A DNA stretch of 42,815 bases from Bacteroidales bacterium (GTDB lineage: Bacteria; Bacteroidota; Bacteroidia; Bacteroidales; UBA932). The translations under genes were made by a program, and so were the position numbers. Shown here piece after piece: positions 1,005 through 32,956 of the stretch. The DNA is taken from assembly GCA_017439305.1 (NCBI GenBank), contig JAFSJK010000008.1, positions 1 to 42,815 of the forward strand, read 5' to 3'. Below the pieces are notes generated by a model. The model did not search any database, had not been told where the DNA came from, and saw only the letters and a program-made list of their open reading frames with translations. Every line of letters begins with the position of its first letter. Positions within the stretch are counted from its first letter, which is position 1.

Positions 1005-4000
1005 TAATCAGAAAGGCATTTTCCTGCTGTCTGCTGGTGTTGGCGATTCCCGCTGGCGCCCAGTCCTATCTGGACCGGCTTTCCGACTACATCGAGAACA
1101 CGTCCGTGTTCGAGGAAAACCAGGAGCCCGGCCGGGCGTTCCACCTTCCGGAGCAGTCCCTCTCCCTGAACGGCACCTGGAAGTTCGGTTATTACGAGCG
1201 TCCGTCGGAGGTGCCTGCGGATTTCTTCAAGCCGTCCTTCAATGACCGGAAGTGGGGGACTGTCGAAGTTCCTTCCAACTGGGAGATGCAGGGATATGGC
1301 CAGGCCGTTTTCCGCAATGTCACCACCCCTTTCCCGCTGTTGCCCCCCCAGGCGATGCGGGAGCAGTTCGCAGCCGCCTATCAGACTCCGGGTCTTTCGG
1401 AGACGGCCAAGGAATACCTGCTTTCCCGTCTGGGCGGCAGCCTGACCCCTCCTCCTTTCGCCGTGAGCGTCCCGGAGGTCCCCGAATTCAATCCTACAGG
1501 AGCCTACAGGACCGTTTTCAGCCTGCCCAAGGACTGGAAGGGACAACAGGTGTTCCTGCGTTTCGAAAAGGTGGCATCGGCTTCCTTCGTTTGGATCAAC
1601 GGGCAGGAAGTGGGCTACAACGAAGGCGCCCAGGAACCGGCGGAATACAATGTTACGAAGTATCTCAAGCCCGGAAAGAACACGCTGGCGGTGCTGGTGC
1701 TTAAGTACAGCGACGGTTATTATCTCGAGAGTCAGGATTACTGGCGGCTTGCAGGCATCTTTGACGATGTGACGCTCTATGCCTCCCCGCAGGCCCGGAT
1801 CTGGGACTGGCAGGTAATCACAGACTTCGGACCGGATTTCGTCGATTCGGACCTGAGCGTCGCCGTCACCCTGCGCGGATTTGACGTGCAGGGGAGCGGA
1901 TACCAGGTGAAGGCGACCGTTTCCCAGGAAAGGAAGATAGTCGCGCAGATGACCGGCGCCCCCGTCACCATCGGCCCGGGCAGCTGCCAGACGGTGAACC
2001 TGGCCGCGAAGGTGAAGGCCCCCGAGAAGTGGACGGCCGAAACCCCGGCGCTGTACCGGCTGGACCTTGTTCTCACGGATGCGGCCGGCCAGGTCGTGGA
2101 CCGGGTTGACAAGCGCATCGGCTTTAAGAAGACCGAGATCCGGGACGGCGTCTTCTATCTGAACGGACAGCCCATCAAGGTAAGCGCCGAATGCACGCAC
2201 ATGCAGCATCCGACGCTCGGGCATGCGATGACCGAGGAGGTCGTCCGCCGCGACCTGGAAATCCTCAAGCAGTTCAATTTCAACGCGGTCCGGACCTCGC
2301 ACTATCCGCCCGTGAACGAATACCTGGACCTGGCCGACGAATACGGCATCTACGTCATCGACGAGACCGGGGATGAGTCCCACGCTTCGGAATATGTGTC
2401 CGACTGGCCTGAATTCACCGAAATGTACCGGGAACGGGTGCGGCGGATGGTCCTGCGGGACCGCAACCATGCCTGCGTCCTGTTCTGGAGCGCCGGCAAC
2501 GAAAGTGGTGAGGGAAATAACATCACGGAGGTTGTCAAGGAAGGCAAACGCCTGGATCCCACCCGTTTCTGGATGTATGGCGGCAATGCGGCCAAGCATC
2601 CGGCCGAGGATATCGTCGGCCCGCGTTATCCCATTCCCATCGAACATGAAATCGGCTATGGACTGGACCGGGAGGACCTGCGTCCGTCCTTCATGGACGA
2701 GTATCTGTCCGTTGCCGGCAATGGCGGAGGCGCCCTGGACGATTTCTGGGAGGTGATCTACGCCCATCCCAAGCTTCTGGGCGGCGCCATCTGGGATTTC
2801 GTGAGCCCGGGTCTGGAAGAACCGGTCCGCGCGCTGAAAGACCGTTCGCCCCATGCGGTTCCCGCCCATATCATGGGCCAGGCCAAACTGGTGAAAGGTC
2901 CTACGGGAAAAGCCATCGACCTGAACAAACTGGACCAGTGGGTGCAGGTGTACCGGGATGACGCCGTGGAGATTGCCGGCGACAAGCTCACCCTCACGCT
3001 GGACATCCTTCCCCGGAAATACAATGTTTCCGGCGGGTATCTCCTTACCAAGGGTGAGAAACAGTACGGCCTTCGGCAGTACCGCGACGAGCGGCTTGAT
3101 TTCTATCTGGACAACGGAAAGAAACAGGTCCTGTCGTCGGCCCTTCCCGCGGATTGGGAAGGAAAGTGGCACAATGTGACTGCCACCTATGACGGGGCTA
3201 CCATGAGAATCTATATCGACGGTGCCGAAGCGGCCTCGCAACCCATGCAAGGATCCATCCGCAACCTTCCGCTTGCCGTATGCATCGGCCGGAGCGAGGA
3301 GTCCTGCGGACAGGAAACGAGTGTCTTTATCTGCGACGCGCTTATCGACAATGTCGGCATTTTCGCCGAGGCCGTGCAACCGGGGGCCTTCGATCCGTCC
3401 AAGGCAGCTCTCTGGCTGGATTTCGAGGAGGAGACCGTGGAAGGCACCTTCTGGACCTACGGCCTCGGGGCGCGGACCTACGGCAGCATCTGGCCGGACC
3501 GCACGCCGCAGCCGGAGATGTGGCAGATGAAAAAGAGCACCCAGCCGCTTTCCTTCAAGCTTTTGGATCCGGAGCACGGAATCGTGGAGGTGTGGAACCG
3601 CAGCCGGTTCCTGAACGCCTCGTACTATTCGACTTCCTGGATTCTGACGGCCGATGCCGACGTGGTTGCGTCCGGTGAACTACTGCTGGATGTCGCCCCG
3701 ATGGACCGCGCCATCGTCCGCATTCCGATGCCGCATCCGGAAGCCGTTCCCGGAAAGGAATACCGTCTCACGGTCACCTCGGTGCTGGCGGAGGATGAGA
3801 TCTGGGCGCCGAAGGGACACGAAGTTTCCTGGGACCAGTTTGAACTGTCGGCCTGGAATGTACCCGCCCAGTATGTTCCGGCTGTCGGAAAAACGAGGCT
3901 GGAACGGGATGAGAAGGGCATTACGGTTACCGGAGCAGGCTTTTCCTATCGGTTCGACGCAGTTTCTGGCGCGCTGGTTTCAGCGGTTGTTGACGGAAAG

Positions 4001-29853: not shown

Positions 29854-30228
29854 ATGGTTAACCAGTACGAGACCGTATTCATTGCAACTCCCGTTTTGTC
29901 TGAGGCCCAGATGAAGGATGCGGTTGCCAAGTACACCCAGCTCATCCGCGACAACGGCGGTGAGATCGTGTACGAAGAGGATTGGGGCCTGCGTCAGCTC
30001 GCTTATCCGATCCAGCACAAAACCTCAGGTTTCTATTACCTGATCGAGTTCAAGGCCGACTCGCAGTTCGTCGCCACCCTCGAGACCCAGTATCACCGTG
30101 ACGAGCGCATCATCCGCTTCCTGACCGTCGCCCTGGACAAGGACGCCGTCGCCTACGCCGAGAAGCGCCGCGCCAATAAGGCTGCCAAGGCCTCTGCCGC
30201 CGAGGCTCCCAAGACCGAAGAAGAGTAA
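29854..30228 (+). CDS. rpsF: 30S ribosomal protein S6
   Basis: 124 residues. The N-terminus [15 protein letters not shown] and the central [14 protein letters not shown] with [10 protein letters not shown] are diagnostic of bS6. The Ala/Lys/Glu-rich C-terminal tail is normal for the phylum. bS6 binds the 30S platform together with bS18, encoded 18 bp downstream. First gene of the ribosomal operon, with its own promoter and a leader of about 65 bases. Confidence 0.97.
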
Positions 30229-30246
30229 TCAAAGGAGGAATTCATC

Positions 30247-30516
30247 ATGGCAAACGAAAACAGCGAAATCCGTTATCTGAACCCTCCGACCGTGGAGGTT
30301 CGCAAGAAGAAATACTGCCGCTTCAAGAAAGCAGGTATCAAGTATGTCGATTACAAGGACCCTGAGTTCCTCAAGAAGTTCCTCAACGAGCAGGGCAAGA
30401 TCCTTCCCCGCCGCATCACCGGTACTTCCCTGAAGTTCCAGCGCAAGGTCGCCCAGGCCATCAAGCGGGCCCGTTCCCTTGCTCTCCTTCCGTATGTCAC
30501 TGACCTTCTTAAATAA
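30247..30516 (+). CDS. rpsR: 30S ribosomal protein S18
   Basis: 89 residues. The conserved core [18 protein letters not shown] and the C-terminal [20 protein letters not shown] are typical of bS18. An AAAGGAGG-like sequence lies shortly upstream (30230-30238), a rather strong ribosome binding site for this genome. It sits between rpsF and rplI in the usual order, without an intervening ssb gene. Confidence 0.97.
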
Positions 30517-30524
30517 TCTGCCTT

Positions 30525-30971
30525 ATGGAAATTTTGCTGAAGAAAGATGTGGCCAATCTCGGCTACGCAGGTGAGATCGTCAAGGTCAAGGCCGGTTATG
30601 CAATGAACTATCTCGTGCCGCAGGGCTTCGCCACCGTGGCCACCGAGTCCGTGAAGAAGCAGCATGCGGAGACCCTCCGTCAGCGTGCGCACAAGGAGGC
30701 CAAGCTCGTCGCCGACGCCGAGGCCCTCGCCGCCACCCTGAACGCCCAGGTCCTCGAGGTCGCTGCCAAGGTTGGTGAGACCGGCAAGCTCTATGGCTCC
30801 GTCACCACCGAGCAGCTCGCCGAGGCGCTCGCCGCCAAGGGACTGAACATCGACAAGAAGGACATCACCATCCTCGCCTCCGAGGTGAAGGAACTGGGTG
30901 AGTACGAGGCCGCCGTGAAACTCTACAAGGGCATCAAGGGCACCTTCAAGTTCAACGTGGTCGCCGAGTAA
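30525..30971 (+). CDS. rplI: 50S ribosomal protein L9
   Basis: 148 residues. The N-terminal domain MEILLKKDVANLGYAGEIV with the signature KAGYAMNYLVPQGFA is standard for bL9. A long connecting helix and the C-terminal RNA-binding domain follow (GKLYGSVTTEQLAEAL). Last gene of the operon; a strong terminator hairpin begins 50 bases downstream. Confidence 0.97.
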   Translation: MEILLKKDVANLGYAGEIVKVKAGYAMNYLVPQGFATVATESVKKQHAETLRQRAHKEAKLVADAEALAATLNAQVLEVAAKVGETGKLYGSVTTEQLAEALAAKGLNIDKKDITILASEVKELGEYEAAVKLYKGIKGTFKFNVVAE

Positions 30972-31020
30972 ATCCTTGCATCGTCCTCCGGTCCTTTCGG
31001 GCCGGGAACGGTCCATTTTC

Positions 31021-31062
31021 AAACAAAGACATCCGGAAACAATCCGGATGTCTTTGTTTTTG
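31021..31062 (+). terminator. Strong intrinsic terminator of the ribosomal operon
   Basis: A perfect 17-bp stem (31021-31037 with 31043-31059), loop AACAA, followed by T residues. The left arm is AT-rich at its base and GC-rich at its tip. Confidence 0.92.
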
Positions 31063-31107
31063 TTGATTGCCAGTTACTTATCCTGCAAGGAAACAGGTCT
31101 TCCCACA

Positions 31108-31139
31108 TTTGCCCCCGAGCGCTCCGCTCCCTACCTTTG
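31108..31139 (+). promoter_or_regulatory. Promoter facing no protein gene; likely drives a small RNA
   Basis: TTTG at 31108-31111, 20 bases, TACCTTTG at 31132-31139: both boxes and spacing fit the Bacteroidetes consensus. Downstream on this strand there is no coding gene, only a compact structured segment and a terminator before the end of the convergent acyl-CoA synthetase gene. Confidence 0.7.
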
Positions 31140-31143
31140 CGGG

Positions 31144-31236
31144 GATACCTGCCACCGTTTCCGGTTGAGCACTCAGGCCCGTCTGCCGTGAGGGTATCGT
31201 CCGGGGGATGGCGTTTCCGCCATCCCCTTTCTGATT
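31144..31236 (+). ncRNA. Candidate structured small RNA of about 93 nt
   Basis: Between a canonical promoter and an intrinsic terminator lies a segment that folds on paper as a three-way junction. P1 is GATACC (31144-31149) with GGTATC (31193-31198). P2 is ACCG/CGGT (31154-31157 with 31162-31165, loop TTTC). P3 is CTCAGG with CCGTGAG (31172-31177 with 31186-31192, one bulged G). The terminator hairpin follows after a few bases. No convincing open frame with a start fits the transcript. I looked for SRP RNA domain IV motifs and 6S-like organisation and did not find them. It is either an unannotated small RNA or a known family I do not recognise. Confidence 0.55.
31204..31236 (+). terminator. 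Intrinsic terminator of the candidate small RNA
   Basis: A perfect 10-bp GC-rich stem (31204-31213 with 31218-31227), loop TTTC, then TTTCTGATTATT. It reaches into the stop codon of the convergent gene. On the other strand the same hairpin lacks a T tract. Confidence 0.8.
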
Positions 31237-32956
31237 ATTCCTCTTCCTTCTTCCCGTCTTCCTTGACGGGCTTCTCCGGCTCGTCGCCGTGGGAATCCTT
31301 GTACTTGAAGCGGCGGATCTTCTGGGTGGCGGTCTTCTCGAACGGTTCCTTCATCGCATCGACTTCACCGATCTTGGAGTTCTTGCCCACCTTCTTGTTC
31401 ACCCAGTCCAAAACGGCCTTCTTGCGGTTTTCCAGTTCTTCGAACCATTTGTCTTCGACGGCCTGGTCCCAGTTGAGGGCGTTGTCGGAGAATTTGACGA
31501 GGGCGACGAGCTTGCCGTCACGTTCCATCACGAGGGATTCCTCCACGCCTTCGAAGTTATTGATTACCTGTTCAATCTCTTCGGGATAGATGTTTTCGCC
31601 GGAAGGACCCAGGATGGTGTTGTTCAGGCGGCCCTTGATGTAGTAGTTGCCCTGATTGTCTACGGTGGCGACGTCGTTGGTATGGAACCAGCCTTCGTCG
31701 TCCAGGACCTGCAGCGTACGCTCGGGATCCTTGTAGTAGCCCAGCATCACGTTGTTGCCGCGGACGACGATCTCGCCTTCTCCATTGGCCGGATTCACGT
31801 TGTCCAGCCGGATGTCAACCTTGTAGGTGGCGACTCCGATGGATCCGAGGTGCTTCTTCTTGTTCACCATCACGTTGCATACCAGCGGCGCGGTCTCGGT
31901 GAGGCCGTAGCCGACAGCATACGGGAACTTGCAGTCGATGAGGAACTGTTCCACCATCGGGTCCAGCTTGGCGCCGCCGATGCCGAAGAACTGGAGTTTC
32001 CCACCGAAGGAATTCACCATGCGCCGGCCGATGAACCAGTGCAGGATGCCGGGAATATGCTTGTCGGCCCAGGAAAGGATGCGGCTCTTCTGGATGGTAG
32101 GCAGGACACTGTTCTTCACCACCTTCTCGATGATCAGGGGAACGGACAGCACGACGGTGGGCTTCACCTTCTTCATCGCTCCGAGCAGGATGGTCGGAGT
32201 CGGTGGTTTCTGCAGGGTATAGCACGTGGCACCCACATAGAAGGAATACAGTGTGGAAACGCTCATTTCGTAAGCGTGGGCGGCCGGGAGGATGCTCAGG
32301 AAGCGGTCTTTCTTAAAAGCGGGCTTCGCCTTGAAGGCGGCCGCCAGGTTGCTGGACAGGTTGCGGTGGCTCAGCATTACGCCCTTGGCCTTGCCGGTCG
32401 TGCCGGAAGTGTAGATGATGCAGGCCAGGTCGTCCGGCTGCGGATCTTTCACCCATCCGTTGCACTTGAAGTTCTCCTTGTCTTTCTTGAGGAATTCGAA
32501 GGTTTCGATGTCGATGATGAGGGTGAGCTTCTGCTTGCACTCTTCGCTGAGTTTCGGCATCATCCGCTTGGAGATGAAGATGACCTTCGACTCGGAATGG
32601 TTCAGGATGTTGGTGAGTTCGTGCTCCGAGCTGTCCGGAAGGACGGGGACGGCCACGCGGCCGAAGGCCGTTGCGGCAAAGAAGGCCACCACCCAGTTGG
32701 GCATGTTCTGCGAGAAGATGGCGACCCGGTCTCCGTGCTTGATGCCGAAGCGGGACATCCGCTGCGAAAGCCGTTCGGTCTTGGTGCGGAAATCCGCGTA
32801 AGTATAGCACTGACCGCCGTCTACGAACTGGTAGGCAATCCGTTTCGCATAATTGGTGGTGGCGTAGTCAAAGACCTTATGAAGGGTGGTACAGGTGTTC
32901 TCGCGGTTCCGGTATCTCCGCCAGGCTTTGTAGGGACTCTTGATTTTCTTGGCCAT
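31235..32956 (-). CDS. Long-chain acyl-CoA synthetase (AMP-binding)
   Basis: A 573-residue ANL-superfamily adenylating enzyme. The AMP-binding P-loop YTSGTTGKAKGVMLSHRN, the VGYGLTETAPLV motif and the hinge region GRLNNTILGPSGENIYPEEIE are clear. It should activate fatty acids to acyl-CoA, or possibly acyl-ACP, with ATP. Compared with E. coli FadD the length is similar and the C-terminus ends in a charged Lys/Glu tail. It lies 27 bp downstream of a PlsC-like acyltransferase, so the pair may channel fatty acids into phospholipid. Substrate chain length is inference. Confidence 0.9.
   Translation of the reverse strand: MAKKIKSPYKAWRRYRNRENTCTTLHKVFDYATTNYAKRIAYQFVDGGQCYTYADFRTKTERLSQRMSRFGIKHGDRVAIFSQNMPNWVVAFFAATAFGRVAVPVLPDSSEHELTNILNHSESKVIFISKRMMPKLSEECKQKLTLIIDIETFEFLKKDKENFKCNGWVKDPQPDDLACIIYTSGTTGKAKGVMLSHRNLSSNLAAAFKAKPAFKKDRFLSILPAAHAYEMSVSTLYSFYVGATCYTLQKPPTPTILLGAMKKVKPTVVLSVPLIIEKVVKNSVLPTIQKSRILSWADKHIPGILHWFIGRRMVNSFGGKLQFFGIGGAKLDPMVEQFLIDCKFPYAVGYGLTETAPLVCNVMVNKKKHLGSIGVATYKVDIRLDNVNPANGEGEIVVRGNNVMLGYYKDPERTLQVLDDEGWFHTNDVATVDNQGNYYIKGRLNNTILGPSGENIYPEEIEQVINNFEGVEESLVMERDGKLVALVKFSDNALNWDQAVEDKWFEELENRKKAVLDWVNKKVGKNSKIGEVDAMKEPFEKTATQKIRRFKYKDSHGDEPEKPVKEDGKKEEE

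Follow-up and report, generated by a model that had tools for sequence, protein, structure and literature searches.

Background

Between rplI and the gene that converges on it, a Bacteroidales bacterium carries a short stretch of DNA that resembles a gene of its own. The question is whether it encodes an RNA and, if so, what that RNA would do. The window, the whole stretch of 42,815 nucleotides that was analysed, is contig JAFSJK010000008.1 of assembly GCA_017439305.1, and a sequence-only reading had proposed a free-standing small RNA gene in it. We believe that positions 31108-31236 are probably a small RNA (sRNA) gene, that its product would act as a trans-encoded antisense of the mRNA of an AraC-type regulator and lower that regulator, and that it was probably born as an inverted copy. 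The gene anatomy is conserved, the RNA is complementary to the regulator gene, the two occur together and they carry matched changes. It is in our view an open question how new sRNAs come to be matched with their targets. If our explanation is true, the birth of a regulatory RNA, its target site and the co-evolution of the two can all be seen in one clade, which offers the RNA, a strong candidate target and relatives that are without the RNA or the site.

A probable gene with its own signals behind rplI

We define membership by promoter, core and terminator standing together behind rplI. Of 400 genomes sampled from the genus to which the window belongs, 12 keep the unit in this form: G000 (the window's own), G003, G088, G172, G359, G382, G418, G389, G318, G297, G240 and G255. 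The transcript is predicted to run from 31144 to 31236 on the plus strand (about 93 nt), both ends being read from sequence and fold. Ahead of it on the same strand are the promoter boxes that had been claimed, TTTG at 31108-31111 and, after a 20-nt spacer, TACCTTTG at 31132-31139. TTTG with a spacer of 19-20 nt is found in nine of the 12 members; the second box has the form TAnnTTTG in 11 and TAACTTTA in one, and lies 3-4 nt before the core. A -33 TTTG and a TAnnTTTG are the boxes of the Bacteroides primary sigma factor in PMC7366714, and judged by their letters the -33 and -7 boxes of the window fit this promoter type. A sigma-70 scan of 30000-32400, which does not cover the Bacteroides-type promoter, found no promoter. 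By eye, GCRAG stands upstream of the promoter at about the same distance in all 12 members and is perhaps a regulator-binding site; in the window this upstream element is TGCAAGGA at 31084-31091 (plus strand).

The GC-rich terminator is also present, and the terminator scan places it at 31203-31228 on the plus strand, a hairpin of 11 pairs with a T-poor tail, CTTTCTGATT. All 12 members fold with a hairpin behind the core, mostly of other sequence in the relatives; the core is conserved while the spacer and terminator sequences change. Upstream, rplI (bL9; 30525-30971, plus strand) is the neighbour in every member. A terminator-like hairpin at 31021-31059 (plus strand) would close the ribosomal operon, as had been said, and part the small RNA from it. 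The acyl-CoA synthetase-like gene at 31235-32956 is on the minus strand and converges, so there is indeed no protein gene on the plus strand for the unit to serve. The convergent gene is an acyl-CoA synthetase in 10 of the 12 members and another gene, by eye a sugar transporter, in the other two. Among the 10, G389 has an extra plus-strand open frame between the RNA and the synthetase gene (L071, about 1632-2048). The genome G105, which is without the RNA, has a rplI-synthetase gap of 256 nt (L031, about 1245-1500, minus strand) with a hairpin and, by eye, a promoter-like TATTTTCG, perhaps an unrelated small RNA.

Bases that vary between members, along with indels, argue by eye against a coding frame. 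By these sequence signals the unit has its own promoter and terminator and is not a coding gene, as a trans-encoded sRNA gene should be. The retention of promoter, core and terminator in 12 members supports the idea that it would be a free-standing unit of about 93 nt. By eye it had been matched to no known RNA family, and an Rfam scan of the window agrees, with 0 matches at the gathering score; at relaxed thresholds there were seven matches, the best at 19.1 bits against a cutoff of 60, which gives no family, whether SRP RNA, 6S RNA, riboswitches or others.

Occurrence in relatives

The members were reached by several searches. A search of 151 genomes of the genus found rplI in 125, and among the loci of the best 30 of these 125 matches the unit stands behind rplI, by eye, in three besides the window's own. 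An exact core pattern finds it in seven of the 400 genomes. A covariance model built from those seven members (R1) matches 30 places in 27 of the 400 genomes at E up to 0.02: the 12 members, three places on the antisense strand of the target gene discussed below (G088, G172, G418), 10 that were dropped and five left unassigned (G222, G070, G261, G101 and G402, E 0.016-0.019). In the 10 dropped places (L074, L077-L083, L087, L088) the 16 nt upstream contain no TAnnTTTG, and the loop GGCCCGTCTGC is absent. Of these places, L074 (genome G009) scores ahead of two members (E 4.2e-5, against 5.2e-4 and 6.0e-4 for L075 and L076); it is without promoter and loop and is coding by eye. A second model built from the 12 RNAs alone (R2) recovers the 12 RNA genes at E up to 0.002 in the 400 genomes, as expected for its own members.

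Beyond the genus, 393 genomes of the order were searched, and the window's own match is the single one to stand out. The five others (L060-L064, E 0.002-0.05) are a smaller number than expected by chance from so many genomes, and they too lack both a TAnnTTTG in the 16 nt upstream and GGCCCGTCTGC. A scan of named genomes gave 10 stretches, of which six are the unit; the remaining four (L050, L051, L054, L055) are located elsewhere and were not accepted as members. The six are each identical over 700 nt to one of G088, G172, G003, G418, G359 and G382 and therefore add no member. All six come from assemblies of uncultured Bacteroidales or Bacteroidia, five with RUG names, which we take to be rumen genomes; the genus may be a Cryptobacteroides-like one of rumen Bacteroidales. 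None of these absences is absolute, since the searches score part of the first-look candidates and many genomes are incomplete. In a rplI tree of 31 rows the 12 members form one group, weakly supported (48/81).

The fold of the RNA

The sequence-only reading described a closed three-way junction, and this claim stands in part. The MFE fold of 31144-31237 is a three-way junction and a hairpin at -44 kcal/mol (z -4.45, 0 of 200 shuffles as stable). The score is exceptional because the terminator is included: for the core without it (31140-31202) z is -1.14 and 30 of 200 shuffles fold equally well. The core folds no better than shuffles, so the single window sequence supports the terminator only, and the unit is more than chance because 12 species conserve it. 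Helix P1 joins GATACC (31144-31149) to GGTATC (31193-31198), with a U-A to C-G change in relatives. P2 is a hairpin at 31150-31171, CCG-UUUC-CGG with lower pairs. P3 and its loop region occupy 31172-31192, all on the plus strand. Compensatory base changes in relatives had been named as one check to make, and they are found in P1 and P2. What does not hold strictly is P3, where the inner GGC/GCC is mostly kept and the outer pairs (CTCA/TGAG) vary in the relatives. Inside this region GGCCCGTCTGC, at 31176-31186 (plus strand), is invariant in all 12 members.

Over the nine distinct core sequences of the 12 members, 94.4% of the cells of the junction are paired, both-sided changes occur in three of 16 stem pairs (11 of 500 shuffles have as many), and the covariation score is matched by one of 500 shuffles. 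G297 is misaligned in P2 of the MAFFT alignment, by eye. Ten cores folded alone have P1 and P2 in every case. MFE folds that include the terminator have P1 in eight of the 12 members, and it is absent in G418, G088, G382 and G389. An alternative fold, in which GUCU replaces GGUAUC as the partner of the first strand, is the MFE structure for the whole G382 transcript. With the first seven members it had 100% of its cells paired and a covariation score matched by 24 of 500 shuffles, against 95.8% and 12 of 500 for the junction. On all 12 it falls behind, at 91.5% and 47 of 500 against 94.4% and one of 500, and is disfavoured.

A candidate target in a short AraC-type regulator gene

In four members (G088, G172, G418 and G003) the models have a second match, antisense within a coding sequence. 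It would be natural to dismiss those of R1 in G088, G172 and G418 as chance matches in coding sequence, and this proved wrong, as they are the antisense strand of the target gene. Because of these second matches we searched the 12 genomes for GCAGACGGGCC, the complement of the invariant loop. Of its 75 occurrences 12 are the RNA genes; as a word it is not enriched, since the reversed control has 72. Of the 63 places outside the RNA genes, however, 12 belong to one orthologous group that has a single member per genome. The remaining 51 are in genes common to at most seven genomes (the next groups have 7, 5, 4 and 4). A second orthologous gene has GCAGACGGGCC in seven of the 12 genomes (L091, L129, L130, L137, L141, L150, L155) and a third has it in five; these are possibly further targets, or merely conserved codons.

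The group found in all 12 is a short regulator gene. The G000 protein has 171 aa and carries HTH_18 and HTH_AraC domains; its gene lies behind one for YitT/DUF2179. By eye, the start of the protein looks like a membrane anchor. The invariant loop, GGCCCGUCUGC in the RNA, thus meets GCAGACGGGCC in the regulator gene of every RNA-bearing genome, in the window's own at G000:C20:6798-6808. The site occupies nt 139-149 of the coding sequence, in a linker whose columns are invariant at 11 of 11 positions of the site and at 16 of 67 of the rest. In all 12 genomes the RNA gene and the target sit on separate contigs, so the RNA is encoded away from its target. Two yitT genes and leuS (by eye) precede the regulator in four of five stretches inspected; the G240 stretch starts in the second yitT. 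In L203 (1957-7175) the row leuS - yitT - yitT - araC-like is nearly gapless and the regulator is last; the interval from leuS to the regulator yielded no exact TAnnTTTG. The RNA could therefore uncouple the regulator from its operon.

The complementarity goes well beyond the 11-mer. Most of the length of the core is complementary to about codons 41-62 of the regulator. With G-U counted, the paired positions among those aligned are 58/62 in G255 and G240, 52/60 in G318, 50/55 in G382, 49/60 in G389, 49/57 in G297, 47/57 in G003, 46/57 in G418, G088 and G172, and 39/48 in G000 and G359. Conserved complementarity with a target mRNA, as a trans-encoded base-pairing sRNA should have, thus appears to be present and is weakest by score in the window's own genome. 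For each of the 12 the cognate duplex is more stable than every one of 300 dinucleotide shuffles, with a narrow margin in G000 and G359 (-62.3 against -61.2 for the best shuffle). By alignment score G000 stays below the best of its 500 simple shuffles (42.5 against 44.0), and G359 and G172 likewise do not rise above theirs. The regulator ranks first among the 11-mer sites in 10 genomes; in G000 and G359 another site scores slightly above it (44.0 against 42.5).

Homology searches reach the same gene. R2, in the 400 genomes at E up to 0.002, has nine secondary places, all on the antisense strand of the regulator gene. BLAST with the G240 RNA (E up to 10) matches that strand in eight of the 12 genomes. 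That strand is the best match in G318 (3.9e-8, 81% over 61 nt) and G382 (0.009), it is second to the RNA gene in G255 (2.6e-5) and G240 (5.1e-4), and it is weak in G000, G359, G003 and G297 (E 0.15-0.94), the G000 site (0.17) standing behind an unrelated match at 0.048. Elsewhere in G389 a 31-nt stretch (G389:C13:128146-128176) is 87% like the G240 core, E 2.7e-4. Across the 12 members the mean unpaired value of the 11-mer is 0.43-0.60 in the RNA and 0.37-0.60 in the mRNA; it is partly unpaired in both partners, so a first contact there is permitted.

Matched changes and relatives without the RNA

The RNA and the gene differ between members in corresponding ways. Only in G389 does the RNA read GUCUGCU and the gene AGCAGAC, where the others have GUCUGCC (GUCUGCG in G318) and GGCAGAC. 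G297 has a U before GGCCC in the RNA and an A after GGGCC in the gene, and in G240 and G255 RNA and gene carry additional bases at the same position. There are also changes that break pairs, GCG against GGC in G318 and C.U in G389. Among nine sequences the excess of cognate over swapped pairs is reached in 22 of 100,000 permutations by alignment and in 13 by energy, and among six sequences in 299 and 157, with the tree ignored in all of these figures.

A regulator-protein search of 27 RNA-less genomes finds a close homologue (52-67% identity) in 18, each with yitT in the same stretch, and the 11-mer is present in 0 of these 18. The other nine have more distant homologues only and were left out of the count. 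The best regulator homologues of five further genomes, two of them close, are also without the 11-mer. In G149, whose rplI is a patchwork, there is no core behind rplI and no site in the regulator homologue. When an antisense copy was sought in six RNA-less genomes with one relative's gene segment, the best E outside the regulator gene was 0.022. It is important to realize that this co-occurrence may be one event, since the members form one group; the simplest history would be that a single clade gained RNA and site once.

Proposed explanation and its alternatives

We propose that the predicted RNA of about 93 nt binds the mRNA of the short AraC-type regulator (HTH_18) encoded behind the yitT genes at the other locus. 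The invariant loop GGCCCGUCUGC would most likely make the first contact, and the remainder would zip into a long imperfect duplex inside the coding sequence. Such a duplex would stop translation or make the mRNA a substrate for double-strand cleavage, and the level of the regulator would fall relative to its operon partners. Repression seems to us the likeliest outcome because the duplex would lie in the ribosome's path and would be long enough for double-strand cleavage. As for its origin, a single event in the ancestor of the clade probably placed an inverted copy of a regulator segment behind a promoter downstream of rplI, after which RNA and target would have changed together. That the RNA was born by inverted duplication of a coding piece of its own target, moved, and was kept complementary over about 60 nt by matched changes among nine sequence forms is a part of the proposal for and against which we find the case about even. 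The natural matched variants in G389, G297 and G240 would be ready compensatory mutants.

A real small RNA could instead have its function elsewhere, in protein binding or on other mRNAs, with its likeness to the regulator a relic of an inverted-copy origin. The likeness over 61 nt fits common descent, the both-sided changes in P1 and P2 make the RNA's own fold seem to be under selection, and other complementary sites exist in one gene of seven genomes and one of five. A relic would decay, however, and the 11-mer is instead invariant within a variable linker in all 12 genomes; cognate pairs also fit better than swapped ones, so we regard this as unlikely. It is more doubtful by far that there is no functional RNA here and that a conserved intergenic stretch carries chance matches to a promoter and a terminator. 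The core does fold like its shuffles, but it is kept while spacer and terminator sequences vary, and chance leaves the matched changes with the target unaccounted for; we give this hardly any weight.

The element could also work in cis, insulating rplI from the convergent synthetase gene or serving as a 3' UTR element of the latter on the minus strand. It sits in a convergent gap, and its hairpin starts just behind the synthetase stop codon. Yet rplI has its own terminator-like hairpin, four RNA-less relatives (L016, L020, L029, L034) have only 62-125 nt between rplI and the synthetase gene, and the convergent gene differs in two of the 12 members (a transporter by eye). Since the promoter is on the plus strand in all 12 and insulation needs no invariant 11-mer, we consider a role in cis very improbable. 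A junction that resembles an aptamer and is followed by a terminator recalls an orphan riboswitch or attenuator, in which a ligand would bind the three-way junction. The next gene is convergent, though, Rfam has no riboswitch match (fluoride reaches 10.8 bits against a cutoff of 34), and the complementarity to a distant gene would be left unexplained, so that this idea is scarcely tenable. The antisense RNA of the regulator mRNA is the explanation we prefer.

Comparison with known systems

PMC7366714 describes GibS and RteR as trans-encoded sRNAs of Bacteroides, a genus without an obvious Hfq or ProQ homologue. RteR is 90 nt long and makes expression of the tra operon discoordinate, and GibS uses a single-stranded, conserved seed at its 5' end to pair with translation initiation regions. 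Bacteroidetes mRNAs have no Shine-Dalgarno sequence, and the same source called the action of trans-encoded sRNAs there open in 2020. The RNA of the window is like GibS and RteR in being a predicted free-standing small RNA with a promoter of the Bacteroidetes type, the sequences having been compared through the Rfam scan only. Unlike GibS as described there, it would be folded, with most of its length pairing to a coding region. A GibS-like seed at the translation start is not what we find, as the site is at nt 139-149 and the invariant loop is unpaired only in part.

The DonS family, as described in PMC7366714, consists of cis-antisense RNAs of Bacteroides of 78-128 nt that lie opposite their target. 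The window's RNA would be an antisense RNA of similar length, but none of the 12 genomes has its gene and its target on one contig. It does not overlap the target on the opposite strand as a cis-antisense RNA does, the two being at different loci, and by eye there is no TAnnTTTG at the matching place on the antisense strand of the regulator in the sequences inspected. A narrow phrase search of open-licence literature gave, in titles and the starts of abstracts, no bacterial example of an sRNA that arose as an inverted copy. The CopA/CopT plasmid antisense pairs are perfect cis-encoded complements whose loops could make the first contact. Our pair is like them in being two complementary RNAs with a possible loop contact, and unlike them the window's RNA would be trans-encoded, imperfect and chromosomal. 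Some plant microRNA genes were born from inverted copies of their targets. The RNA proposed here differs from these in being bacterial, with a terminator and no RNA interference machinery, and it resembles them in its proposed origin, an inverted segment of a target becoming the regulator of that target.
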